From positions 1-41,812 of IMG/VR virus record IMGVR_UViG_3300031825_000028: a stretch of DNA of 41,812 nucleotides, one strand, 5' to 3'. Shown piece after piece: positions 1 to 39,117 of the stretch (its first letter is position 1; each line of letters begins with the position of its first letter). The notes beneath the pieces are model-generated. The model was not told the DNA's origin and searched no databases. It was given only the letters and a program-made list of their open reading frames with translations. Position numbers and translations under genes: made by a program. Source of the DNA: a virus.

Positions 1-248
1 CCGCCGCAATCGACCGCTACATTGCCGAGTCCGAGAAGGCCATGGGCAAGACCAAGGCCCAGGTTCTGCGGTCCATCAAGGCCCACGCGATCGCCGCCAA
101 GAAGTGCTCTGCGATCGACTCGGAGGTTATTTGCGACTTCGCGAAGTCACTAGAGTCGTCTCCATCGACGCGTGGCAATTACATTTCGCACCTGTCCTCC
201 ATCTTCACCATTGCGCGGCCGATGTGGAAATACCCGCTGGACCGTCAA
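1..248. repeat. Terminal direct repeat, left copy
   Basis: These 248 bases match the last 248 bases of the window (41565-41812) except at base 128, which is T here and C at 41692. The repeat lies wholly inside the integrase reading frame and the difference is silent (GTT versus GTC, valine). The simplest reading is a circular sequence cut open inside integrase with an overlapping end left on. The mismatch suggests two closely related molecules in the sample, or an error. Confidence 0.95.
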
Positions 249-854
249 GCCATGACCGACGCGCAAATCGTCCTCCGGAGGATGGGGATCATTTCAAAGA
301 GCGACGAGCGGGACCGCCGGCCGACGCTGCAAGAACTCGACAGGCTCATGGTTCATTTCGGAACGGTCCAGAAGCGCCGGGCCGGTTCGATCCCTATGCA
401 GATGATTATCCCGTTCGCGATCTTCTCGACCCGCCGGCAGGACGAGATCAGCCGCATCGAATGGAAAGGACTTGAACCCGGCAGGGTCATGGTGCGGGAC
501 ATGAAGCACCCCGGCGAGAAGGCCGGCAACGACACTTGGTGCGATCTGGTCCCGGAGGCCGAGCGGATCATCGAGTTAATGCCGAAGACTGGAGCGGAGA
601 TTTTCCCGGCCTCGGCTGATGCAATCTCCGCGGCGTTCACGCGGGCCTGCAAGCTGCTCGGCATCGACGATTTGCACTTTCACGACCTTCGCCACGACGG
701 CATCTCCCGGCTGTTCGAGATGGGCTGGACCATCCCGCACGTAGCGTCGGTGTCCGGGCATCGATCCTGGCAATCGCTGAAGCGCTACACGCACCTTCGC
801 CAGACCGGCGACAAATACGCAATCTGGAAATGGAAAGACGGAGGAAGCACATGA
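1..854 (+). CDS. int: Tyrosine-recombinase integrase, C-terminal part (5' end cut by window)
   Basis: Site-specific recombinase that would insert and excise the phage genome. The frame is open from base 3 and continues the fragment at 41357-41812; joined, the protein is 353 residues, normal for a phage integrase. In full-length numbering the catalytic set is visible: R215 (in TRRQDEI), K238 (DMKHP), H297 and R300 (HDLRH), H323 (SGHRSW) and the nucleophile Y332 (RYTHL). The N-terminal part carries the arm- and core-binding domains. The ATG at 42 is internal (M84) and not the true start. The stop overlaps the next start by 4 bases (ATGA), so translation is probably coupled. Confidence 0.95.
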   Translation, partial: AAIDRYIAESEKAMGKTKAQVLRSIKAHAIAAKKCSAIDSEVICDFAKSLESSPSTRGNYISHLSSIFTIARPMWKYPLDRQAMTDAQIVLRRMGIISKSDERDRRPTLQELDRLMVHFGTVQKRRAGSIPMQMIIPFAIFSTRRQDEISRIEWKGLEPGRVMVRDMKHPGEKAGNDTWCDLVPEAERIIELMPKTGAEIFPASADAISAAFTRACKLLGIDDLHFHDLRHDGISRLFEMGWTIPHVASVSGHRSWQSLKRYTHLRQTGDKYAIWKWKDGGST

Positions 855-1200: not shown

Positions 1201-1261
1201 ACGGCAAGTTTAGGCGAAGAAGTGGCCGGCAAATAAGGGTTTCTTGAAACTACACTGGGGC

Positions 1262-1954
1262 ATGAGAAAAGTGATTCGCGGTGAAAGCATAGTGGCGATG
1301 CGGCCGGTCCAACCGGCAGAGGGCGGCTCGATTCCGGCCTTACCGCTCCATAAAGACCCTCGTCTGACCGTTCGGGAGGTGTTCGCAAAGGAGGCGCAGC
1401 AGATGGTGGTCGAACACCACTATCTGCACAGAAAGACGAACGTCTCATATGCCTATGGGCTGTTTTTTAACGGGGAGATGGTCGGCGTCTGTACCTTCGG
1501 GTGCCCACCATCCCGGCATCTCCAAATGGGCGCCTGCCCGACCGACCCAAGCTTGGTGATCGAACTTAACCGGCTTTGGATCAGCGACAACATGGGGCCG
1601 AATACCGAGAGCTGGTTTATCAGCCGGGCGCTCAAGATGCTGCCGCCTCGGATTGTCGTCTCCTACGCCGACACCAAGTTCGGACACATTGGCTACATCT
1701 ACCGCGCCAGCAACTTCCACTATGCGGGGTGGACGGATATGGAGCGCAAGACGCCCCGTTACGACTACCTCGCCCCCGGCAAGCATACTCGCGATGCCTT
1801 TAGGAACGGCGCTGGTGCGCAGTCCGTGAAGGTGCGCCGCAAGCCAAAGCATAAATATTGGACCACCACAGGCGACCGCCGCGAGCGCAAGCGACTAGCG
1901 AAGCTGTGCGGGTGGCCTCTGCTTTCATGGAAACCGCACGAGGTGACGGAATGA
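1262..1954 (+). CDS. Mom-like DNA adenine modification protein
   Basis: Resembles the Mom family (GNAT-related fold), which in phage Mu converts adenine in phage DNA to a carbamoylmethyl derivative and protects it from host restriction. Family-like features are the segment VVEHHYLHRK, the strand AYGLFFNGEMVGVCTFG, the ELNRLWISD block followed by NTESWFISRAL, the block IVVSYADTKFGHIGYIYRA, and a basic tail (RRKPKHKYW). Start is uncertain: TTG 1244, ATG 1262 and ATG 1298 are in frame. The conserved domain begins near RLTVREVF, so any of them keeps it whole. The stop overlaps the next gene by ATGA. Identification is by pattern recognition of the family, not by a search. Confidence 0.8.
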   Translation: MRKVIRGESIVAMRPVQPAEGGSIPALPLHKDPRLTVREVFAKEAQQMVVEHHYLHRKTNVSYAYGLFFNGEMVGVCTFGCPPSRHLQMGACPTDPSLVIELNRLWISDNMGPNTESWFISRALKMLPPRIVVSYADTKFGHIGYIYRASNFHYAGWTDMERKTPRYDYLAPGKHTRDAFRNGAGAQSVKVRRKPKHKYWTTTGDRRERKRLAKLCGWPLLSWKPHEVTE

Positions 1955-4124: not shown

Positions 4125-5362
4125 ACCCCACACCTCGGAAAGTTGATCTTGTGCCGGCCGATTTCGCCGTCTGTTTTATGCAAGGTGACTGCCGACATTG
4201 AATTACCCGCCCGGTAGCCGTGGCTATGCGCGTAAGCGTCTTTCGGAACTGGCTGACGGAACGACTCGCACCGAACCGAACCCACTTCTTTGACTGTCTC
4301 GTGATGAATGTGCCCGTAGATCATCCAGCGATATTTGGAGGCGCCCCAAAATTCGGGATTGTCGTCAGCCATCACCATCGCCATGCGCTCCGGTTTCATG
4401 GTGTGGCCGTGTGTGGCGCCGATGTAGTTGGCACCGAACAGGTGCAGCCAAATATCGTTGTTGCCGTCGTCTAGGTCGATATCCACTCGTGGCTCATTGG
4501 AGTAGAACAATCCCAACGCGATGTTCAGCCAAGCGGCGGACTCTGGATCGTGGTTGCCCTTCAGGTTCTTGACGATGACGCGGGAATGCTTTTGCAGGGC
4601 GTAGTCAATAGACCGCCTGAGAAGCTGGACGCCTGCGAGCTTGACCTTATGCGCCCGCCCGTCCACGTCGAGTTGATGACCGGAGGCTGGGGTCACGTTT
4701 GATTGGCTGTCGGAATGCAGAAAGTCGCCGGTCTGGATGATAACGGCGGTTTCTGCCGGCGGGGCAAGAGAGATAAGCCGCTGCAATCCGCCATCAACGC
4801 GGTCGATGCCTATTTTCAGATCGTTGGATTCGCCGGTTTCCGATGCCCAAGACAGCATGCCGATGTGCGGATCGCAGACCGGATAGACCTGCATCAAATC
4901 GGAATTGGTGTCCTTCGGGGGCTTCGTTAGTTTAGCTACGCCCCTGTACTGCTCAAACTCCTCCTTGATCGCGGCGATCAGGTTGGTTTGCGTTTCTTCC
5001 TTCGTCTTAATCCATTGCTGGATAGTACGGCCGTCAGAACCAACAAGAGCACTGACACCTTTAACAGCATGTCCAGCAGGAACCTCGAACTGCTCCCCCG
5101 CATCTGGTCTCTGCTGGATGAATTCCCTGACAACATCGCCGTCCTGATTCGTGACCGTCGTCGTTTTGGAGATTTGGAAACCTGGGAGGACTGGCTTAGT
5201 GCCCATCAGGCCGCGTCGAGCAGCCAAATCTACACGGTGCTTGAGCGCAGAGCTTGACGACACCCCGGCCTTTCTGGCTGCCGAAAGCGTGAAGCCGTAT
5301 TCTTTGGACACTGACACGGCTAGCAATAACTGCTCGTCTGTCGGTGGTGGCGAGAAGGCCAT
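4121..5362 (-). CDS. Calcineurin-like metallophosphoesterase with N-terminal HTH-like region (413 aa)
   Basis: The five metallophosphoesterase motifs are present in order: DPH at 164-166, GDF at 212-214, GNHD at 269-272, HGH at 318-320 and GHIHH at 350-354. A two-metal phosphodiesterase or phosphatase is expected; the substrate is not evident. Residues 8-50 (TDEQLLLAVSVSKEYG, then AARKAGVSSSSALKHRV) look like a small helix-turn-helix that could bind nucleic acid. The start at ATG 5362 overlaps the previous stop (TGATG); upstream in-frame ATGs lie inside two other genes. It sits downstream of the lysis genes, an unusual place for a DNA-processing enzyme. Confidence 0.85.
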   Translation of the reverse strand: MAFSPPPTDEQLLLAVSVSKEYGFTLSAARKAGVSSSSALKHRVDLAARRGLMGTKPVLPGFQISKTTTVTNQDGDVVREFIQQRPDAGEQFEVPAGHAVKGVSALVGSDGRTIQQWIKTKEETQTNLIAAIKEEFEQYRGVAKLTKPPKDTNSDLMQVYPVCDPHIGMLSWASETGESNDLKIGIDRVDGGLQRLISLAPPAETAVIIQTGDFLHSDSQSNVTPASGHQLDVDGRAHKVKLAGVQLLRRSIDYALQKHSRVIVKNLKGNHDPESAAWLNIALGLFYSNEPRVDIDLDDGNNDIWLHLFGANYIGATHGHTMKPERMAMVMADDNPEFWGASKYRWMIYGHIHHETVKEVGSVRCESFRQPVPKDAYAHSHGYRAGNSMSAVTLHKTDGEIGRHKINFPRCGV

Positions 5363-5451
5363 CAGCCCACCAACGAATGCGTGTACATGAAGATCAGGCA
5401 GAACAGCATTGCTGCGAGCCCGGCGACCAGAGGCCAGTTGATGCGGTTCAT
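5362..5451 (-). CDS. Single-span membrane peptide (29 aa)
   Basis: A 29-codon ORF tied into the operon at both ends: its ATG overlaps the preceding stop (ATGA at 5451-5448) and its stop overlaps the phosphoesterase ATG (TGATG). The product MNRINWPLVAGLAAMLFCLI... is almost one transmembrane helix with a polar N-terminus. Position and form suggest a lysis accessory peptide, but that is inference. Confidence 0.6.
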   Translation of the reverse strand: MNRINWPLVAGLAAMLFCLIFMYTHSLVG

Positions 5452-5651
5452 TTGCGCCAATAGCTCTTATGCAGATGCACGCCAATCTGTATGGCAAGCC
5501 ACGCGATGCCGAACCATGGAAGCAAGTCTCTCGCTATCCCTGATGTTTCGTGCAGCCAGAGTGGCGAAGACACAGCACCAACGGCCACCGCGTCCGTTGT
5601 GGCGGTCACGACTTCCGCTTTAGTTTGCGGCAGAAGATCGAGAATGTTCAT
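5448..5651 (-). CDS. Small membrane protein (67 aa), lysis-region
   Basis: Starts at ATG 5651 (GTG 5660 also in frame) and ends with ATGA overlapping the next gene. The middle is mildly hydrophobic (DAVAVGAVSSPLW) and the C-terminal third is a clear membrane helix (LLPWFGIAWLAIQIGVHL) followed by a basic end (HKSYWRK). It has a holin-like or holin-accessory appearance; no specific family recognised. Confidence 0.65.
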   Translation of the reverse strand: MNILDLLPQTKAEVVTATTDAVAVGAVSSPLWLHETSGIARDLLPWFGIAWLAIQIGVHLHKSYWRK

Positions 5652-5701
5652 TTCGGCCACCGCTTGATGAACCGCATAAAGTTTTCACCTTTTAGTGCCA
5701 T
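5648..5701 (-). CDS. Possible 17-codon minigene
   Basis: ORF MALKGENFMRFIKRWPK: cationic and amphipathic. AGGA lies directly before its ATG, and an inner ATG has AAGGTG eight bases upstream. Its stop overlaps the next ATG (ATGA), the same coupling used elsewhere in the operon, which is the only real support. The 82 bases upstream of it (5702-5783) hold no convincing gene. Could equally be a leader or chance ORF. Confidence 0.25.
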   Translation of the reverse strand: MALKGENFMRFIKRWPK

Positions 5702-18757: not shown

Positions 18758-19225
18758 TTACGAGAACGGGGTGGCTTCGGAGCCGGTCGCGTGACCGAAC
18801 ATTCGAACCGACCACACGCCAGTAGCCACGTCTTCAAGCTCGACGATATCGCCGGCAAAGCCGCCGCGAGTTGAGCCGTCCATCGTGATGGTAACGCCGG
18901 TCGTGGTCGAGAAACCGCCAAGCGCGGCGGCGTCGTCACCGAACAGATGGGCGAAGCCTTTATAGACATCGCTGGCCGAGGCGGTGACGATCGTGTGGCT
19001 TCCGCTCGATACCGTCGCAGCGATAAAGAAGCGGAGCTTCATACCCGTACCGTTCGCAACGGGCAAGGTCGTGGCAAAGCCCGTCGTGTTGTTGAGGTAG
19101 ATCGTCTGACCGTCGTGCAACTCCTGAGAGAGAGTCGTCGCAGCGGTAATAGAACGAATCCGGCTCTGGCCGGAACGCGCGTCCTGATCCAGAACCGGAC
19201 GGGACGAGTTAAGAGAAGCAACCAT
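18758..19225 (-). CDS. Capsid-associated (decoration-like) protein (155 aa)
   Basis: Beta-rich protein just after the capsid gene, with segments HDGQTIYLNNTTGFATTLP and GMKLRFFIAATVSSGSHTIVTA (partial), ending VWSVRMFGHATG. It reads like a small beta-sandwich capsid-decoration protein. A related layout, though not obviously the same sequence, is found at 21646-22230. AAGGA sits nine bases before the ATG. Confidence 0.6.
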   Translation of the reverse strand: MVASLNSSRPVLDQDARSGQSRIRSITAATTLSQELHDGQTIYLNNTTGFATTLPVANGTGMKLRFFIAATVSSGSHTIVTASASDVYKGFAHLFGDDAAALGGFSTTTGVTITMDGSTRGGFAGDIVELEDVATGVWSVRMFGHATGSEATPFS

Positions 19226-19252
19226 GTTGTGTTGTCCTTTCCAGGTTCAGGA

Positions 19253-20389
19253 TTAATCGGCAGCCGACGAGAAGAAGCCGGTGGCAAGGCCCCATTGCAC
19301 CAAGTTCGATCCGGTGTTCGGGTGTTTCTTGAAGATCTTCGAAACGCCGTAGGCCATTTCGATGCCGGAGCCGGTGATGAAGCCGTAATCATCTTCCTTG
19401 CGGAAGGTGGGCTTCGCCATCTGGCCCCAAGCCATTGCCGCCGCCTGCTGACCGCACAGGAACACGGGTTCGACCCGGTTCGAGGTGGTGCCTGCGGTTT
19501 TCAGGGTGGTCCAGACGTTGGTCACGAAGGACGAAATCTCCGGAACCTGACGGACGATAATGCCGTCGTAAATCTGGTCGCCATCCTGGAACAACGGGTT
19601 CTTGTCTACGCCGTTCTGTTCGCGCGGCCGGGCATCCTTGTTGATGGTTTCAAGGGACTGCTTGAGGTCGCGGAAGGTGTTGAGGCCGGCAAAGGCGACA
19701 TAATACTCGTAGCCGCTGTCGGTCTTGAACGGGCGGATCTTCGGGCTGGCACCCATCGCGATACGCTTCAGCAGCGCCAGATTGGTCGCGGTGAACTTGT
19801 CGTTGGTGGTGTCGAGTTCCGCCAGCGAAAGCGCGTGGGTGGACTTGGTGTTGGTCGTCGCGCTGCCGTACAGAATGCGATCGGTATTCGCCGTCTGCCA
19901 CGTATTGCGCTGACCGGTGGTCGCCAGATCGTACTGGATGCCGTTGACACGGACGCCGGCCGAGGGCTGCGACTCCGACGGCAGCGCCATCAGGGCCGAG
20001 ATCAGTTCGTCGCGCTGGAGTTCCTTACCCCAGTCGGACAGCAGCGGCTTGGCGACGCCGAAGACATCCGAGGCGTCCTTCTGGTTTTCCGCCTTGTTGG
20101 TGACGACAGCGTGGCGGGCCCATTCGAGCCAGACGCGCATGCCGTAGTTGTCGATCATTTCCTCGTTGCCGACCAGCGTACCGGTCGATACACCCGCGCC
20201 GGTCAAGCGAGAGACCAGCGGAATGTTCATCTGTTCGCCGCCGGCCTTCAGTTCGTTCCGGATGCGGATGATCGAGTTGAGCGACGTGCCCATGTAGGGG
20301 GAGAAGAGATTGCCGCGGACGTATTCGCGGTTGATCTCCTGAGTGAACCTGATGAGCTTGTTATTGCTCTGGACGGTGGTAACAGCCAT
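19253..20389 (-). CDS. Major capsid protein, N4-gp56/DUF4043-like (378 aa)
   Basis: The N-terminus AVTTVQSNNKLIRFTQEINREYVRGNLF (partial) followed by YMGTSLNSIIRI, MNIPLVSRLTGAGVSTG and TLVGNEEMIDNYGMRV is characteristic of this capsid family, which forms HK97-fold shells. The middle DELISALMALPSE and later EYYVAFAGLNTFRDLKQS fit the core domain. The order scaffold-capsid matches P22-like heads. AAAGG lies eight bases before ATG. A hairpin terminator precedes it, see 20424-20452. Confidence 0.85.
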   Translation of the reverse strand: MAVTTVQSNNKLIRFTQEINREYVRGNLFSPYMGTSLNSIIRIRNELKAGGEQMNIPLVSRLTGAGVSTGTLVGNEEMIDNYGMRVWLEWARHAVVTNKAENQKDASDVFGVAKPLLSDWGKELQRDELISALMALPSESQPSAGVRVNGIQYDLATTGQRNTWQTANTDRILYGSATTNTKSTHALSLAELDTTNDKFTATNLALLKRIAMGASPKIRPFKTDSGYEYYVAFAGLNTFRDLKQSLETINKDARPREQNGVDKNPLFQDGDQIYDGIIVRQVPEISSFVTNVWTTLKTAGTTSNRVEPVFLCGQQAAAMAWGQMAKPTFRKEDDYGFITGSGIEMAYGVSKIFKKHPNTGSNLVQWGLATGFFSSAAD

Positions 20390-26788: not shown

Positions 26789-26962
26789 TCACGGCCATTT
26801 GGCTTTCAGATCGCGCAGCAATTGGGCCGCCGCCTTGAATGCCCTGCGGTATGTCTCGCCACCCTCCTGCGCCTCTACCTTCCTCGCCGCCTCTTCCAAG
26901 GCCCTGCGCGCAGCGTCACCGCGCTCCAATTCAATCACCCTGGAAATATTGGTCTCGCTCAC
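26789..26962 (-). CDS. Small helical protein (57 aa)
   Basis: GTG start at 26962 overlapping the NusG-like stop (GTGA). The product is one long alanine/glutamate/arginine-rich helix (VIELERGDAARRALEEAARK), a second helix (ETYRRAFKAAAQLLRDLKAKW), and nothing else. Probably a coiled-coil or small binding protein. Its tie to the NusG-like gene hints at a linked function, not demonstrated. Confidence 0.6.
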   Translation of the reverse strand: MSETNISRVIELERGDAARRALEEAARKVEAQEGGETYRRAFKAAAQLLRDLKAKWP

Positions 26963-27495
26963 GCCGCCCTCACGTTCTGCTCTCGGGTGTAGAAAAACTC
27001 CCGCTTGCCCGGTGGCAGGAATTCCAGCTTGCCGTTCTTTCGTCCGCGGATGACGGTCAGCATGTCCGCGAACTCGCCTTCCATGATCCGGACAATGGCC
27101 CCGACAGGAATCCGATTATTGCGTTTCGTCATCTGGCCGGTCTCCGGGTCCATGTCCCAGAGCCCATTTGCTTCGCTGCTCACGAAGTCCCATTCCCCGG
27201 CGGCGTAGCGGTCGTGGAAGCGCCAGACGACCTTGGCTGGGATCGTGGCAGGCTGACCGTCGCAGCCCTTCACGATGGCTTCCACGCCGTTGACGCTGCC
27301 GACGGCATAGAAATTATTGTCCGGCACTTCAACGAACAGATACCGCCCCAAGACCGGATATTCCTTCGCCTTTTTGGTTCTGGCGTGGGAAACCCATTTC
27401 CGGAGCTTGGGCCAGAACGCCCGATAGCCGATTGCTGCCAGTCCGGCCTCGGCGCGGCGGTGACAATTCGGGTTAGTGATCGCGATGTACCACAT
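26959..27495 (-). CDS. NusG/RfaH-like transcription elongation factor (178 aa)
   Basis: Length and layout match NusG paralogues. An N-terminal NGN domain begins MWYIAITNPNCHRRAEAGLA, continues with GYRAFWPKLRKW and contains KEYPVLGRYLFVEVP, the motif that contacts RNA polymerase. A C-terminal KOW-type barrel has VGAIVRIMEGEFADMLTVIRG (partial). Such proteins bind paused RNA polymerase and promote elongation or antitermination. It heads the late operon, which contains several hairpin terminators. Start: ATG 27495 with GGGGAAG upstream; ATG 27540 would add 15 residues not typical of NGN. Confidence 0.8.
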   Translation of the reverse strand: MWYIAITNPNCHRRAEAGLAAIGYRAFWPKLRKWVSHARTKKAKEYPVLGRYLFVEVPDNNFYAVGSVNGVEAIVKGCDGQPATIPAKVVWRFHDRYAAGEWDFVSSEANGLWDMDPETGQMTKRNNRIPVGAIVRIMEGEFADMLTVIRGRKNGKLEFLPPGKREFFYTREQNVRAA

Positions 27496-27567
27496 GTTGA
27501 TGTCTTCCCCTGCTATTGGTGGAAATTGATTCAAACTCAAACTGTTAGGTGTGGTCAGTCCTTTAAG

Positions 27568-27870
27568 TCAGGAGAGAGCGGCCTGCTCTGCGCGACGCTC
27601 CGGCTGCGCTGGCACAACCCAAATCTGTTCCGGCAATGGCACTTGCTTAAGCGCTTCGATGTAAGCCTTCCCGCGGTCGGTCAGGGCATATCGGGCGCGC
27701 AAGGTACCATCATCAAATCGCTCGACATGAAAGTTCGAATGCTTGATCATGTCCGCCGTCAGAAAATTGTTCAACGCCGCCTTCACCGCTGGTGCCGAGT
27801 GATCCCCCTCCCGATAGTCGCGAGCGCAGTAGTAATAGAATAGCAAAATCTCGATTTCTAACGGTGTCAT
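27568..27870 (-). CDS. Winged-helix-like hypothetical protein (100 aa)
   Basis: The N-terminus TPLEIEILLFYYYCARDYRE, then AVKAALNNFLTADMI and ARYALTDRGKAYIEALKQVP, reads like a winged helix in which the last part, 'Y-x-L-T-x-R-G-x-x-Y-I-x-x-L', is the wing and final helix. It could regulate phage transcription. Its start overlaps the previous gene's stop (ATGA at 27870-27867). Confidence 0.6.
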   Translation of the reverse strand: MTPLEIEILLFYYYCARDYREGDHSAPAVKAALNNFLTADMIKHSNFHVERFDDGTLRARYALTDRGKAYIEALKQVPLPEQIWVVPAQPERRAEQAALS

Positions 27871-28052
27871 GGCTTCGCTACCTTGGGTTCGAGCCTCGCT
27901 TTGATGTATTTCAGCGCCTCGTCAATCGAGGTCGAGGCGAAGCGCATCTGTCGATAGTCGCCTGAGCGACTAAAGCCGTCGCCAATCATGTAGCCGCCGT
28001 CCGGCAGCTTCTGTATTTCCAGATTAGAAATGTTTTCCAAAATAAGTGCCAT
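27867..28052 (-). CDS. Small hypothetical protein preceded by repeated leader motif (61 aa)
   Basis: ATG 28052 follows a purine-rich ribosome site (GAGAGGGTGAGA). The product is a short alpha/beta protein (LILENISNLEIQKLPDGGYMI, partial; DEALKYIKARLEPK). No family recognised. It is one of three genes in this genome that share the two-part leader motif (here 28075-28104). The in-frame upstream ATG at 28088 lies in that leader and is not used. Confidence 0.65.
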   Translation of the reverse strand: MALILENISNLEIQKLPDGGYMIGDGFSRSGDYRQMRFASTSIDEALKYIKARLEPKVAKP

Positions 28053-28074
28053 TCTCACCCTCTCCCTGCTTCGT

Positions 28075-28104
28075 TGATCGCAAACCAAGAGCAGATCGCT
28101 CCGT
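28075..28104 (-). promoter_or_regulatory. Two-part leader motif, copy 3 (leftward)
   Basis: On the leftward strand: ACGGAGC (28104-28098), 11 variable bases, GGTTTGCGATCA (28086-28075), then 22 bases to the ATG at 28052. Same words and same spacing as the copies at 37583 and 38413. Unknown function: candidate phage-specific promoter, regulator site or RNA leader. Confidence 0.7.
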
Positions 28105-28115
28105 GGTCGGTTGAA

Positions 28116-28748
28116 TTAAAAACCTATTGGATCATCCAACGGCTCCTGCGTGTCGTTGATTGCCTTCAGCGGATCCTCGATCGACCGGCGCACCGCAGTA
28201 ATCGTCGCGCCTGGGAACGTCAGCTTCGCCACGGCGATGCCCGGATAGCTCGAAAGCAGACGGCCGATTTCGTCCAAGGTGTAGACCGCAACCTTTCGGC
28301 CCTCGGCGACCACGGCATGAGCATGCGCGTCGTCGACCACAATCGCCGCCACAGAGCCGTCGGCCAGCGTGGTCTCCCATACCGCGGCAGAAAGTTTTGA
28401 CGCGCCGGCGGACTCGGCAGCCCTGTCCAACGCCATCCACGCGGAGACCATCCGCCCACTCTCCCGGCGCACGGCCTCGAGTTCGCCATGCCAGATTGCC
28501 TGGTTGAGCAGGTAGCGCTGCCGATCGAACTTCTCCCGCAGCTCGGGACTGACGAGGAGCCGCAGCCGATCGCAGCCCCACTTCGCTTCCATCTCGCAAG
28601 CTGTCTCGTCGGCGCCATCGAGATAAGCACGGCCGGCGATGTACGTGCCGGGTGTCCGCGCCCATGAATGTTCGGTCGCCATCATGGCTCGAGGAGCGTA
28701 CGAACTCTGGGCGGCTGAGAGGTTGGTTTCGGTTTGGAGTTTTGCCAT
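28116..28748 (-). CDS. Hypothetical protein of replication region (210 aa)
   Basis: Predicted soluble, mixed alpha/beta: an N-terminal region with EHSWARTPGTYIAGRAYLDG (partial), a helical middle (REKFDRQRYLLNQAIWHGEL, partial), and a C-terminal domain with SVAAIVVDDAHAHAVVAEGR (partial) and ITAVRRSIEDPLK. It follows the primase-helicase operon and probably has a replication- or repair-related role. No family recognised with confidence. Confidence 0.65.
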   Translation of the reverse strand: MAKLQTETNLSAAQSSYAPRAMMATEHSWARTPGTYIAGRAYLDGADETACEMEAKWGCDRLRLLVSPELREKFDRQRYLLNQAIWHGELEAVRRESGRMVSAWMALDRAAESAGASKLSAAVWETTLADGSVAAIVVDDAHAHAVVAEGRKVAVYTLDEIGRLLSSYPGIAVAKLTFPGATITAVRRSIEDPLKAINDTQEPLDDPIGF

Positions 28749-33793: not shown

Positions 33794-34179
33794 GCCCGCT
33801 GCTCCAGCGCAGAGAAGCCGACTGGCGGGTCGCCAAAGAACGCGCCGGTAAGGTCGCGAGGCATGGCGGCCCACCGGGCCTCCCGCGATCTCAGCGCCTC
33901 TTCCGTCGGCTTCGGGCCGGAGGTCACCATGTCGAAGAACTCGCGCGGGGATCTAAGCTCGCTGTTTGCTTGCTTCCTCCGCTCCATGCGGCGTTTCTTG
34001 CGCGCCATCCCCAGCGTGCTCGACTGGCATTCCCATTGAAGGCGCTGCCGTACACGAGCGTCGGTGGTTCCAAGCGCGGCTGCAATTTCGGCGCGCGATT
34101 TTCCGGCGGTGTAAAGTTGGTTGAGCTGGGCGATCTCAGCGAAAGTCCAGCGTCGAAGCTTGCGACCGGCGTTGGTCAT
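33790..34179 (-). CDS. HTH (Myb/GcrA-like) DNA-binding protein (129 aa)
   Basis: The N-terminus RRWTFAEIAQLNQLYTAGKS, then RAEIAAALGTTDARVRQRL, is a typical SANT/Myb-like or GcrA-type HTH that reads DNA. The middle is very basic (MARKKRRMERRKQANSE) and the end is GAFFGDPPVGFSALEQR. Likely an early regulator. GGCGAGGC precedes the ATG, whose stop and start overlap neighbours. Confidence 0.7.
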   Translation of the reverse strand: MTNAGRKLRRWTFAEIAQLNQLYTAGKSRAEIAAALGTTDARVRQRLQWECQSSTLGMARKKRRMERRKQANSELRSPREFFDMVTSGPKPTEEALRSREARWAAMPRDLTGAFFGDPPVGFSALEQRA

Positions 34180-34664
34180 GCCTCGCCTCCGGCGCCCAGT
34201 TTCTGCCCAAGCATCACCTCAGTCAGAGCGATAAGCTCCTGCGACATGCTTCTGATTTTGTATTTGTCCTCGCCCCGATGAATCGCCGCCTTCAACTCAG
34301 TGCAGCGGTCGTAGCAAACCGACATCAGGCGAGGGTCAAAGTCATCGCGCGGTTTGTTGTCTAGCTCAGGCCCAACTGGACCCAAGTCCTCTTCCGGCAA
34401 GACAATCTCGCCATTCATGGCTTGCGTGATCAAGATCCGCACTGCATCGCAATCTTGGAACCACTCACCGCGCAGCCGATGCTCGCGGAGCATTTCATGC
34501 AGGTGTTTCTCTGTTGTTCTGTCTCCGTCGATGACGCCAAGGGTCGTCAACGGCTCCATGTCTGTCGCTTGAAGTGACCGCAAACGCCGTTCAGGCTGTT
34601 TTGTATAGCCAACCTTGATGCGACCTGGTGCGGCGACAAAATAGATTTTACCTATGCCTGTCAT
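34176..34664 (-). CDS. GIY-YIG-type (T5orf172/MUG113-like) protein (162 aa)
   Basis: The N-terminal about 85 residues match the MUG113/T5orf172 style: KIYFVAAPGRIKVGYTKQPERRLRSLQAT (partial), then a helix TTEKHLHEMLREHRLRGEWF with the E-x-x-L-H ... G-E-W-F pattern. Such proteins are GIY-YIG related and may nick DNA. The C-terminal half is acidic and helical with no known motif. Starts directly at the upstream stop (TAA then ATG). Confidence 0.75.
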   Translation of the reverse strand: MTGIGKIYFVAAPGRIKVGYTKQPERRLRSLQATDMEPLTTLGVIDGDRTTEKHLHEMLREHRLRGEWFQDCDAVRILITQAMNGEIVLPEEDLGPVGPELDNKPRDDFDPRLMSVCYDRCTELKAAIHRGEDKYKIRSMSQELIALTEVMLGQKLGAGGEA

Positions 34665-36261: not shown

Positions 36262-37029
36262 ATGTCCGTGGGGGTAATATCCTATACGGAGGCGATGGAT
36301 TTGGTCCGCAAGCTGATTCTGGAGAAGCTACAGGAACTTGGGCTTAACATGGCCGAGGTTTCGCACAGACTTGGCAAGAACGAGACCTACCTGCAACAAT
36401 TCCTAAAGAGAGGTTCCCCCCGCGAATTGCATGAGCGGGACAGGATTAGACTTGCTGAGATACTGCAGGTTTCAGAAGACCAGCTCCGCGGCTTTTCCTC
36501 AACATTGCCGAAAAGGGAATACGTTAAGGCTACCGCCAACTCCCGCGAAAGTTTGATTGTGCCCACGGACCCCCCGTCCATACTGGCTGGTAACGAACAA
36601 AGCATTCTGGGCACGAAGCCGGGGGCCTCACTTGTAGGGGATAAGGATCTACCGGTCTTCGGGACTGCACAGGGCGGCAGTGGGGCGCTAATAGTGACTG
36701 ACCAACCGGTGGACTGGGTAGTCCGTCCGGCGCCCCTTTTAAGGGTGCGGGACGGCTACGGGATGATCGTGACGGGCGATTCCATGGACCCGGCCTTTAG
36801 GCCTGGATCTACTGCCCTCATTAACCCTCACCTCCCCCCAAGACTGGGCGACTATTGCTTGTTCCGCAACCACGGAGAGGACGGCACCACTCATGCCGTC
36901 ATCAAGGAGTACCGAGGCGAAACTGAGTCGGTCTGGAAAGTTCGCCAGTACAATCCGCCGAAGGATTTTACTCTAAAAAAGAGCGAATGGCAGATCCGCC
37001 ATAGGGTCGTCGGGAGCTATTTTTCCTAG
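36262..37029 (+). CDS. S24-type (CI/LexA-like) prophage repressor (255 aa)
   Basis: N-terminal HTH (AEVSHRLGKNETYLQQFLKR, about 31-50) and C-terminal S24 peptidase-like dimerisation domain. The catalytic serine is in TGDSMDP (S174) and the lysine in VIKEYRG (K215), spaced 41 apart, as in CI. At the usual cleavage position, about 37 residues before the serine, the sequence is TAQGG instead of Ala-Gly; the nearest Ala-Gly is at 109-110. It would keep lysogeny and yield to DNA damage. ATG 36262 lacks a clear ribosome site; ATG 36295 has GGAGG only two bases upstream. Expression may be leaderless or weak. Confidence 0.85.
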   Translation: MSVGVISYTEAMDLVRKLILEKLQELGLNMAEVSHRLGKNETYLQQFLKRGSPRELHERDRIRLAEILQVSEDQLRGFSSTLPKREYVKATANSRESLIVPTDPPSILAGNEQSILGTKPGASLVGDKDLPVFGTAQGGSGALIVTDQPVDWVVRPAPLLRVRDGYGMIVTGDSMDPAFRPGSTALINPHLPPRLGDYCLFRNHGEDGTTHAVIKEYRGETESVWKVRQYNPPKDFTLKKSEWQIRHRVVGSYFS

Positions 37030-37371: not shown

Positions 37372-37575
37372 ATGCACCACTCCTTCCCCACCATCATCCT
37401 CTCCGAGGAGCCGAGCGACACCGACGCCGTTCTGTCGGCATTGCATCACGACACAACATGGCTGCTCGAAATATCGAACGCCGATCCGAAGTCGTTCATC
37501 GGGCGCGAGCAGGAGCTTTATTCAATCTTGAACGCGATGCAGCTCGTCGCCAGTCGGTTCGCAAGAGTGGCGTAG
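37372..37575 (+). CDS. Small hypothetical protein (67 aa)
   Basis: Follows the previous stop with one base between. The product is soluble and acidic (LSEEPSDTDAVLSALHHDTT, partial), with a C-terminal helix (LYSILNAMQLVASRFARVA). No motif recognised. The next 55 bases carry a copy of the two-part leader motif. Confidence 0.55.
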   Translation: MHHSFPTIILSEEPSDTDAVLSALHHDTTWLLEISNADPKSFIGREQELYSILNAMQLVASRFARVA

Positions 37576-37582
37576 GCTCACC

Positions 37583-37612
37583 ACGGAGCAAGCCGCATCT
37601 GGTTTGCGATCA
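37583..37612 (+). promoter_or_regulatory. Two-part leader motif, copy 1
   Basis: ACGGAGC at 37583-37589, 11 bases, GGTTTGCGATCA at 37601-37612, then 18 bases to ATG 37631. Identical spacing to the other two copies, see findings. Confidence 0.7.
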
Positions 37613-37630
37613 TCGAACAGGGGGAATGAA

Positions 37631-37921
37631 ATGGCGTTTCGAGTTGGGCAGAAAGTGGTTTGTGTGGATGATAGCGATTGGGTCGCAAGTTTGCTGAATA
37701 TGCCTAACCGTCCAGTCCGTGGGCGCGTTTACACAGTTCGCGGGCTCTACGAGAACGCGATCTACCTCGAAGAAATTAGCAACCCTCCGCAAGCGAGATG
37801 GAAAAACGGTGACGTTGCCGAGGCGTGTTTCTTCGCCCGCCGCTTCCGCCCCGTTGTCGAGCGCAAGACCGACATTTCCGCCTTCACGAAGATGCTGACC
37901 GGCAAGCGAGTGGATGCATGA
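37631..37921 (+). CDS. Hypothetical protein, beta-barrel-like (96 aa)
   Basis: Start ATG 37631 with GGGGGAATG just upstream. The sequence AFRVGQKVVCVDDSDW, then PVRGRVYTVRGLYENAIYLE (partial), looks like a small SH3-like or OB-like barrel, followed by FARRFRPVVERKTDISAFTKML at the end. I have seen the 'RRFRPVVERKTDIS-FT-ML' ending in phage-type proteins from rhizobia, but the function is unknown. Preceded by leader motif copy 1. Confidence 0.7.
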   Translation: MAFRVGQKVVCVDDSDWVASLLNMPNRPVRGRVYTVRGLYENAIYLEEISNPPQARWKNGDVAEACFFARRFRPVVERKTDISAFTKMLTGKRVDA

Positions 37922-38142
37922 CCTCCCTGCTGAAGCACCTCCGCTCCCTGATGACCGATAGGCGCATACGCAAGTGCGGTGGAAAGGTGAACCACGTTCC
38001 CCCTCAGTTCTGCCCCACCTGCTCCCGTCATATTGCCTCCAGGTGCAAGGAATTGAACTGCCCGGTGGTGGAAGTGGAGAAGGCGCGTTCGTCCTGCCTT
38101 TACCAATGGCCCGGACCCGGTGGCATTCCGTTTCCACATTAA
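37918..38142 (+). CDS. Small cysteine-rich hypothetical protein (74 aa)
   Basis: ATG overlaps the previous stop (ATGA). The sequence has cysteines at CGGKV, FCPTCSRH, CKELNC and SCLYQW, so a zinc-binding fold is possible, with a basic N-terminus (HLRSLMTDRRIRKC). The opposite strand also has long open frames here, so certainty is limited. Confidence 0.45.
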   Translation: MTSLLKHLRSLMTDRRIRKCGGKVNHVPPQFCPTCSRHIASRCKELNCPVVEVEKARSSCLYQWPGPGGIPFPH

Positions 38143-38157
38143 ACAGGAGAATCTAAA

Positions 38158-38346
38158 ATGCCCGATCCACAGACCGAAAAGACGATCAATATCATTCGCG
38201 GCAAGAACCTTGTCGGCAAGGCATTGCCGGATGATGTGTCAAAGCTTCTGGAGCATATCGACGCGCTCGAAGCATTTCTAGACGACAACGAGCAGGACGA
38301 CCAGTTTGGCACCGAGGGATGGCGTCACGCGATTGGATTGGACTAG
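38158..38346 (+). CDS. Small acidic hypothetical protein (62 aa)
   Basis: CAGGAGA about eight bases before ATG. Acidic, helical (DDVSKLLEHIDALEAFLDDN, partial, then EQDDQFGTEGWRHAIGLD), no recognised family. The 119 bases after it hold no gene; they contain copy 2 of the leader motif. Confidence 0.6.
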   Translation: MPDPQTEKTINIIRGKNLVGKALPDDVSKLLEHIDALEAFLDDNEQDDQFGTEGWRHAIGLD

Positions 38347-38412
38347 CCACTCTTACCGCAATGCGTACAGCGCTTTCCGTATCCGATGTGAGGGGGAATG
38401 ATTCAGGCTGAC

Positions 38413-38442
38413 ACGGAGCGGGCTGGTTTGGGTTTGCGATCA
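38413..38442 (+). promoter_or_regulatory. Two-part leader motif, copy 2
   Basis: ACGGAGC at 38413-38419, 11 bases, GGTTTGCGATCA at 38431-38442, then 23 bases to ATG 38466. It stands at the end of a 119-base gene-free stretch (38347-38465), the longest gap in this arm apart from the one before integrase. Confidence 0.7.
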
Positions 38443-38465
38443 ACTGAACAAAGAGGAATTTGAAA

Positions 38466-38897
38466 ATGTCAGATCTTAATTGGAAAGTTGGCGATTGGGC
38501 GGTCTTTGACCGCGAGATCGTCCAGATCAAGGAAATCCGAGATGAGGGCGGCTGCACTGTCTCTGACGGAACGTGTGGCACTAGCGGCATGCTGCTCGAT
38601 CGGCTGCGTCCCCTCACGCTGCGCAACAAAAGCACCATTGAATATTTCGCCTACTATTATCGCCAATTGAGCACCATCGACGGAGAGGGCGGCTTTAATT
38701 TCCCGGATATAAGCCGTCATTTTTCCAGTCTGGCATTGCGCGCGATGGATGGGCCCGAGGAAGACAAGGCCCCATACGCCGAGGCGCAGGATTTTTTCAA
38801 GATGGCGCGCGAGTACGTCCCCGTGATTCAAGGCGTGTCCCTCTTCAGACGCCGCAGTTCGAACCGGCCCCGAGCAGAAAGCCCCGCTCTCTCCTGA
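38466..38897 (+). CDS. Hypothetical protein (143 aa)
   Basis: ATG 38466 with GAGGA eight bases upstream. The N-terminal third (NWKVGDWAVFDREIVQIKEIR, partial) looks like a small beta-barrel, followed by a middle part with aromatic clusters (EYFAYYYRQLSTI) and a basic tail (SLFRRRSSNRPRAESPALS). Function unknown. Preceded by leader motif copy 2. Confidence 0.65.
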   Translation: MSDLNWKVGDWAVFDREIVQIKEIRDEGGCTVSDGTCGTSGMLLDRLRPLTLRNKSTIEYFAYYYRQLSTIDGEGGFNFPDISRHFSSLALRAMDGPEEDKAPYAEAQDFFKMAREYVPVIQGVSLFRRRSSNRPRAESPALS

Positions 38898-38937
38898 CTT
38901 AATGGTCCCGAAGCAACCAACAGTGTGAATTTGAAAC

Positions 38938-39117
38938 ATGCCTTCCCCCACCACTCTCATGGTCTCCATCCTCACTCCGTTCATCGTGTTAGCCATGTTT
39001 GCGGGAGCGATGTTCGTTCTCAGTCAAGCCCTAGACGAGCGAGCCATGAACAGCATCGAGCAAACCCGCTGTCTTAAAACTGCGAGCAATGGATTGGAGA
39101 TCGAGCAATGTCGGTGA
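38938..39117 (+). CDS. Small membrane protein (59 aa)
   Basis: Short ORF that translates to MPSPTTLMVSILTPFIVLAM (first 20), then a helix AGAMFVLSQALDERAMNSI (partial) and a polar tail ending QCR. One membrane span near the N-terminus. Its stop overlaps the next start by ten bases. Ribosome site weak. Real on spacing and composition, function unknown. Confidence 0.5.
   Translation: MPSPTTLMVSILTPFIVLAMFAGAMFVLSQALDERAMNSIEQTRCLKTASNGLEIEQCR

Follow-up and report, generated by a model that had tools for sequence, protein, structure and literature searches.

A spaced leader motif of an uncultured phage is the core of paired, inverted ends of small, possibly mobile gene cassettes

The two-part motif that an earlier note had reported in front of three genes in 41,812 nt of viral DNA (IMG/VR record IMGVR_UViG_3300031825_000028, positions 1 to 41,812; hereafter the window) is the conserved core of a longer cassette end of 46-47 bp and not a promoter motif. 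About a dozen contigs of uncultured phages carry such elements, which occur on either strand. The elements are paired in inverted orientation around mostly single small open reading frames (ORFs), border different genes at one and the same locus, recur as a gene-less unit dispersed with sharp borders, and maintain the reading frame. What had been described as a candidate promoter motif is thus one half of an inverted pair, which becomes visible only with relatives in hand. We see an even chance that the motif belongs to the termini of small, non-autonomous mobile gene cassettes, similar to miniature inverted-repeat transposable elements (MITEs) and mobile insertion cassettes (MICs), in a group of phages. 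A route is thereby suggested by which these viruses swap single genes. How tailed phages gain or swap small genes one at a time has long been an open question, because the borders of such exchanges are usually invisible; here they are marked.

Results

The motif and the element around it

The window scan detected ACGGAGC-N11-GGTTTGCGATCA exactly at 37583-37612 (+), 38413-38442 (+) and 28104-28075 (-), with 18, 23 and 22 nt, respectively, between motif and ATG, and at no further place in the window when up to three mismatches were allowed. Dinucleotide shuffles searched with the same tolerance gave a mean of 0.06 copies and never reached three, so that the claim of a non-random motif of 19 spaced bases holds, as does the statement that the genes behind the three sites are unrelated, their products being mutually dissimilar in sequence. 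The pattern search in related phages that the earlier note had proposed recovered the exact spaced pattern in four other uncultured phages (viral contig scans).

Alignment of the contigs with the exact pattern extended it to an element of 46-47 bp, TTGATTCAATCGGACACGGAGC-NNN-CTG-N-TT-N-TGGTTTGCGATCACC, with a purine-rich flank outside, and an all-against-all comparison of contigs revealed further variants of this first type as well as a sister type, TTGATTCAGCGC...GGAGAAGTCAGG. The fixed features are an outer block with the consensus TG[A/G/T]TTCA[A/G], a CAC-N-G about 15 nt into the element, and an inner block, GCGATCACC or GAAGTCAG, the sister type showing GGAGAAGTCAGG. The middle is variable, and the spacing of outer and inner block is constant within each end, total length being nearly always 46 or 47 bp (range 45-48). 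A combined loose regular expression found 45 elements in the window and seven contigs, compared with 1.2 in shuffled sequence. What stays constant in the inner block is the nucleotide sequence, despite one-base changes in length and across different reading frames; on these grounds two conserved peptides, VIANQxQxAPCxIES on the reverse and MIQSDTExxxxGLRSP on the forward strand, were rejected as the conserved entity.

The outer flank of some 3' ends is lengthened by a further conserved stretch close to GACGCAACAGGAACNAGATTTGATTCA (G001 24315 and 29637, G002 1648, G004 28549, G008 18885). Type A ends carry GATTC (GANTC, a CcrM-type site) in most outer blocks and GATC in the inner block, sites through which methylation might possibly control the ends.

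Two complete cassettes in the window

Two complete cassettes, 38398-38939 with a 143-aa gene and 27526-28119 with genes of 61 and 100 aa, as well as a solitary end lie in the window:

38398..38444 (+): 5' cassette end, type A (outer block ATGATTCAG, inner block GGTTTGCGATCAAC), holding the motif at 38413-38442; profile E=6e-11
38466..38897 (+): cassette gene for a 143-aa protein without family match; the TGA that ends it falls within the 3' end's inner block
38894..38939 (-): 3' cassette end, type B (ATGTTTCAA...TTAAGTCAG on the minus strand), missed by the earlier note; E=5e-12
28073..28119 (-): 5' cassette end, type A, holding the motif at 28104-28075; E=3e-12
27867..28052 (-): gene 1 of the second cassette, coding for 61 aa; family searches gave no convincing match
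27568..27870 (-): gene 2 of that cassette, coding for 100 aa and without a family match; it ends within the 3' end's inner block
27526..27571 (+): 3' cassette end, type B (TTGATTCAAACTC...TTTAAGTCAG), reported earlier as a degenerate fourth site; E=1.5e-6
26959..27495 (-): NusG-like gene (Pfam NusG; in PHROG a transcription antiterminator), adjacent to the second cassette but not belonging to it
37568..37614 (+): solitary type A end, truncated on the left and recognisable over 37580-37614, holding the motif at 37583-37612; E=3e-5
37631..37921 (+): 96-aa gene behind the solitary end; its homolog in G016 (49%) has no adjacent end

Frame 1 of the end at 38398..38444 reads MIQADTERAGLGLRSTEQRGI* and stops 2 nt before the ATG of the 143-aa gene. 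The C-terminus of the 100-aa protein, RAEQAALS, resembles that of the 143-aa protein, RAESPALS. For the end at 37568, searches revealed neither an outer block nor a start codon nor a 3' partner.

These positions bear directly on the proposal of a phage promoter or activator-binding site driving three genes. All three exact copies in the window do aim at a nearby ATG, and the window encodes a CI-like repressor as well as a NusG-like protein; however, the same elements are found in reverse orientation at the 3' ends of the genes they precede, back to back in gene-less inverted pairs, and in frame within coding sequence, so that they have no fixed orientation to transcription, as a sigma-70-type promoter or activator site upstream of transcription units would have. 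The supposed fourth site is a real element, but it is not a leader of the NusG-like gene: it is an end of the sister type (GTCAG), at 27526-27571, in opposite orientation, which closes the cassette begun at 28119. We therefore regard a promoter or activator site as very improbable.

The CI-like S24 repressor (36262-37029, +) and a tyrosine-type integrase near the left end of the window (42-854, +) make the phage look temperate. A Mom-like DNA modification protein (Pfam Mom, PHROG 1384) is encoded at 1244-1954 (+). The protein at 34176-34664 (-) shows T5orf172/MUG113 (GIY-YIG-type) domain matches and has a weak homolog (48% over a short stretch) in the element-bearing contig G004 (38074-38580); it may be a nuclease partner.

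Pairing and anatomy of the cassettes

Neighbouring ends less than 1.2 kb apart follow each other as plus then minus, with outer blocks directed outward, in 14 of 20 instances (p=3e-5), and profile searches supplied weaker partners for several singleton ends; several others are solitary. Paired ends enclose single small ORFs or nothing at all (composites of 115-130 bp), or they sit in frame within a methyltransferase gene; in G007 two cassettes stand in tandem. Measured from the cassette edges, start codons of unrelated cassettes lie about 63-69 nt in from the left and stops about 42 nt in from the right, TGA often falling within the inner block. Gene calls were made with a simple home-made finder, and most contigs are fragments.

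The 5' ends place the inner block about 20 nt from the start codon, which is preceded by an SD-like, purine-rich sequence. In about 20 of 22 of them, as called by the simple gene finder, a frame running from the first base of the element (NTG) either continues into the gene as a fusion or terminates at its start codon (ATGA or TGA-n-ATG), a count that takes in fused cases with an uncertain true start and the window end at 37568, where the frame is open into the gene and the NTG is absent; the window end at 28073 is one of the two exceptions. The idea of a common leader is thus partly supported.

On such grounds the element might serve gene expression, the 5' end being a translated leader (SD, NTG start, 15-23 codons, stop at the next start) that couples an upstream gene to the cassette gene, and the 3' copy a by-product or a matter of mRNA processing. 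The fused or coupled frames and the SD-like stretch speak for this reading, but it does not account for an inner block kept as nucleotides in different frames within elements of 45-48 bp, nor for the inverted copies at 3' ends and in gene-less pairs. Single-strand folds were mostly unremarkable (two of nine with z below -3), and differences in the outer block were uncompensated, which led to the rejection of an RNA or DNA hairpin; pairing between the two ends of a cassette was likewise discarded, since their complementarity did not exceed that between ends of different cassettes. No Rfam covariance model matched. We consider an expression element unlikely. Against a role as RNA or promoter speak the copies that lie inverted at 3' ends, those inside genes, the absence of complementarity between a cassette's own ends, and folds that are for the most part unremarkable.

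Exchange of genes and dispersal of gene-less units

Different genes were found between the ends at corresponding places in different phages. Downstream of a small gene, here called X, G001 carries a 142-aa, G004 a 63-aa and G008 a 100-aa cassette gene, and the interval from X to a GapR gene holds the 63-aa gene in G004, the 100-aa gene in G008 and a gene-less composite in G002. A methyltransferase gene is interrupted in frame by a 126-bp composite in G004 and by a 663-bp cassette in G008. Gene-less copies at three unrelated loci (G002 1578-1693, G004 48953-49067 and G004 50792-50906) are 81-86% identical inside, while the identity of their 60-nt flanks is near random. Of the places where homology between contigs ends, 13 fall no more than 15 bp from an element edge, against 4.6 expected (p=0.007).

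The GapR-like nucleoid protein gene (Pfam GapR_DNA-bd) is phage-borne and adjoins the most variable cassette locus (G002 1752-2027, G004 28216-28491, G008 18997-19281 and others); its presence suggests alphaproteobacterial hosts, and the hosts of several of these phages are probably Alphaproteobacteria. A cytosine-methyltransferase-like ORF within a cassette (G001 26976-28010) lacks its first approximately 20 residues, including the motif DLFCGLGG that G016 4935-5672 has; it looks like a captured fragment of a gene.

The patterns at shared loci could also arise if the ends were short conserved linkers and not transposon ends, at which genes are exchanged by the homologous (single-strand-annealing) recombination of phage or host; a proposal of this kind exists for intergenic cassettes of T4-type phages. 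This reading is favoured by the different genes at one locus and by several homology breaks 2-8 nt inside the inner edge, where homology traverses the element, the flank is kept and the gene is changed; moreover, a scan of 15 pairs for target-site duplications (repeat length 2-9, offset 0-25) found them no more often than in mismatched pairs. The inverted pairing of ends and the recurrence of a gene-less composite at unrelated loci with sharp outer borders are left unexplained by it. Homologous recombination at conserved linkers is a live rival, because no actor, target duplication, clean empty site or common recombinase was found, and we regard it as possible, though less than probable.

Searches for an actor and for relatives

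No transposase was recognised inside any cassette examined, and no recombinase was common to all element-bearing contigs, which are partial. A clean empty site was not found, nor was a homolog of the in-gene insertion site without the insertion among named phages. Peptide and distant DNA searches of named phages and plasmids gave no significant match.

The proposed pattern search in host genomes brought to light nothing beyond chance: the loose pattern gave 12 single matches in 399 Pseudomonadota genomes, one per genome, a stricter pattern none in 298 genomes of one order (that of a GapR-bearing genome), and neither set held element-like ends beyond chance. Two exact matches of the motif in the genome collection were judged to be chance because the extended element was absent.

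Discussion

Inverted pairs, sharp-bordered gene-less copies and constant two-block spacing suggest that a recombinase or transposase supplied in trans binds the ends, and hence we infer that the ends are recognised and moved by a protein. A mobile gene cassette of this kind would comprise, in order, an end of 46-47 bp, a stretch of about 20 nt that contains a ribosome-binding site, one small ORF or, rarely, two, and a second, inverted end of 46-47 bp. The putative enzyme would move or exchange such units, and homologous recombination at the ends would then swap the inner gene. The fixed spacing of the blocks would be as expected for sites bound by one protein complex, and the gene-less copies of 115-130 bp may be regarded as the MITE-like form, the gene-bearing ones as resembling mobile insertion cassettes. 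The 5' ends have retained a translatable frame, either fused to the gene or coupled to it by a stop-start arrangement, so that a cassette could enter a phage operon or gene and leave translation intact.

Comparison with known systems

A mobile insertion cassette is a passenger gene between two imperfect inverted repeats from which a transposase gene is absent (PMC3913671). MIC231 of Bacillus cereus and mic-qnrD share this layout with the phage cassettes, where a passenger gene is bracketed by two inverted repeats and no transposase gene is present among the annotated cassette ORFs. In contrast to MICs, the phage cassettes show no target-site duplication in the 15 pairs, their ends are longer, two-block and of two interchangeable types, many single-gene cassettes occur per phage, and no parental insertion sequence is known. 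Bacterial MITEs are resembled by the short gene-less units with terminal inverted repeats and sharp borders at several unrelated loci; unlike them, the phage units showed neither target-site duplication nor a parental transposase, and their conserved blocks are kept though the rest has diverged. The family is thus called MIC/MITE-like and not filed under either class, since target-site duplication was tested for and did not appear.

MPME1 and MPME2 are very small mobile elements of mycobacteriophages (439 bp) with inverted repeats, two related types whose compared copies are identical and whose insertions add 6 bp of unknown origin (PMC3029335). From this description the present elements are set apart, as only their ends are common and the inner gene differs each time. 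Start-Associated Sequences (SAS) and ESAS of Cluster K mycobacteriophages are phage-specific repeats before the starts of unrelated genes, part of them with 17-bp imperfect inverted repeats; SAS comprise 13 bp, adjoin the start, lie nearly all in one orientation and are not found at 3' ends (PMC3203893). The phage ends share the position upstream of unrelated genes, but they occur in both orientations and at 3' ends, with an inner block about 20 nt from the start instead of an SD-like 13-mer next to it, and SAS have no cassette borders.

For T4-type phages, Arbiol et al. in 2010 reportedly described repeated intergenic mobile regulatory cassettes, thought to promote gene shuffling, that carry an early promoter and a stem-loop, whereas no conserved fold was seen here and the ends form inverted pairs. 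Integron gene cassettes are exchangeable one-ORF units with a short recombination site; their sites are directly oriented, fold into hairpins and need an integrase beside the array. The phage cassettes are likewise exchangeable one-ORF units with a short site, yet orientation counts and DNA folds revealed inverted pairs and no conserved single-strand hairpin, in contrast to attC, and no such integrase was seen. A phage counterpart of integrons, that is, a dedicated, so far undescribed site-specific system exchanging single-gene cassettes between inverted pairs of two-block sites, with ends that keep translation going upon insertion between or within genes, seems to us rather unlikely, though worth naming. 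If the ends are recombination sites, they can be used to look for accessory phage genes, and they provide a concrete system for testing mosaicism at the level of single genes.
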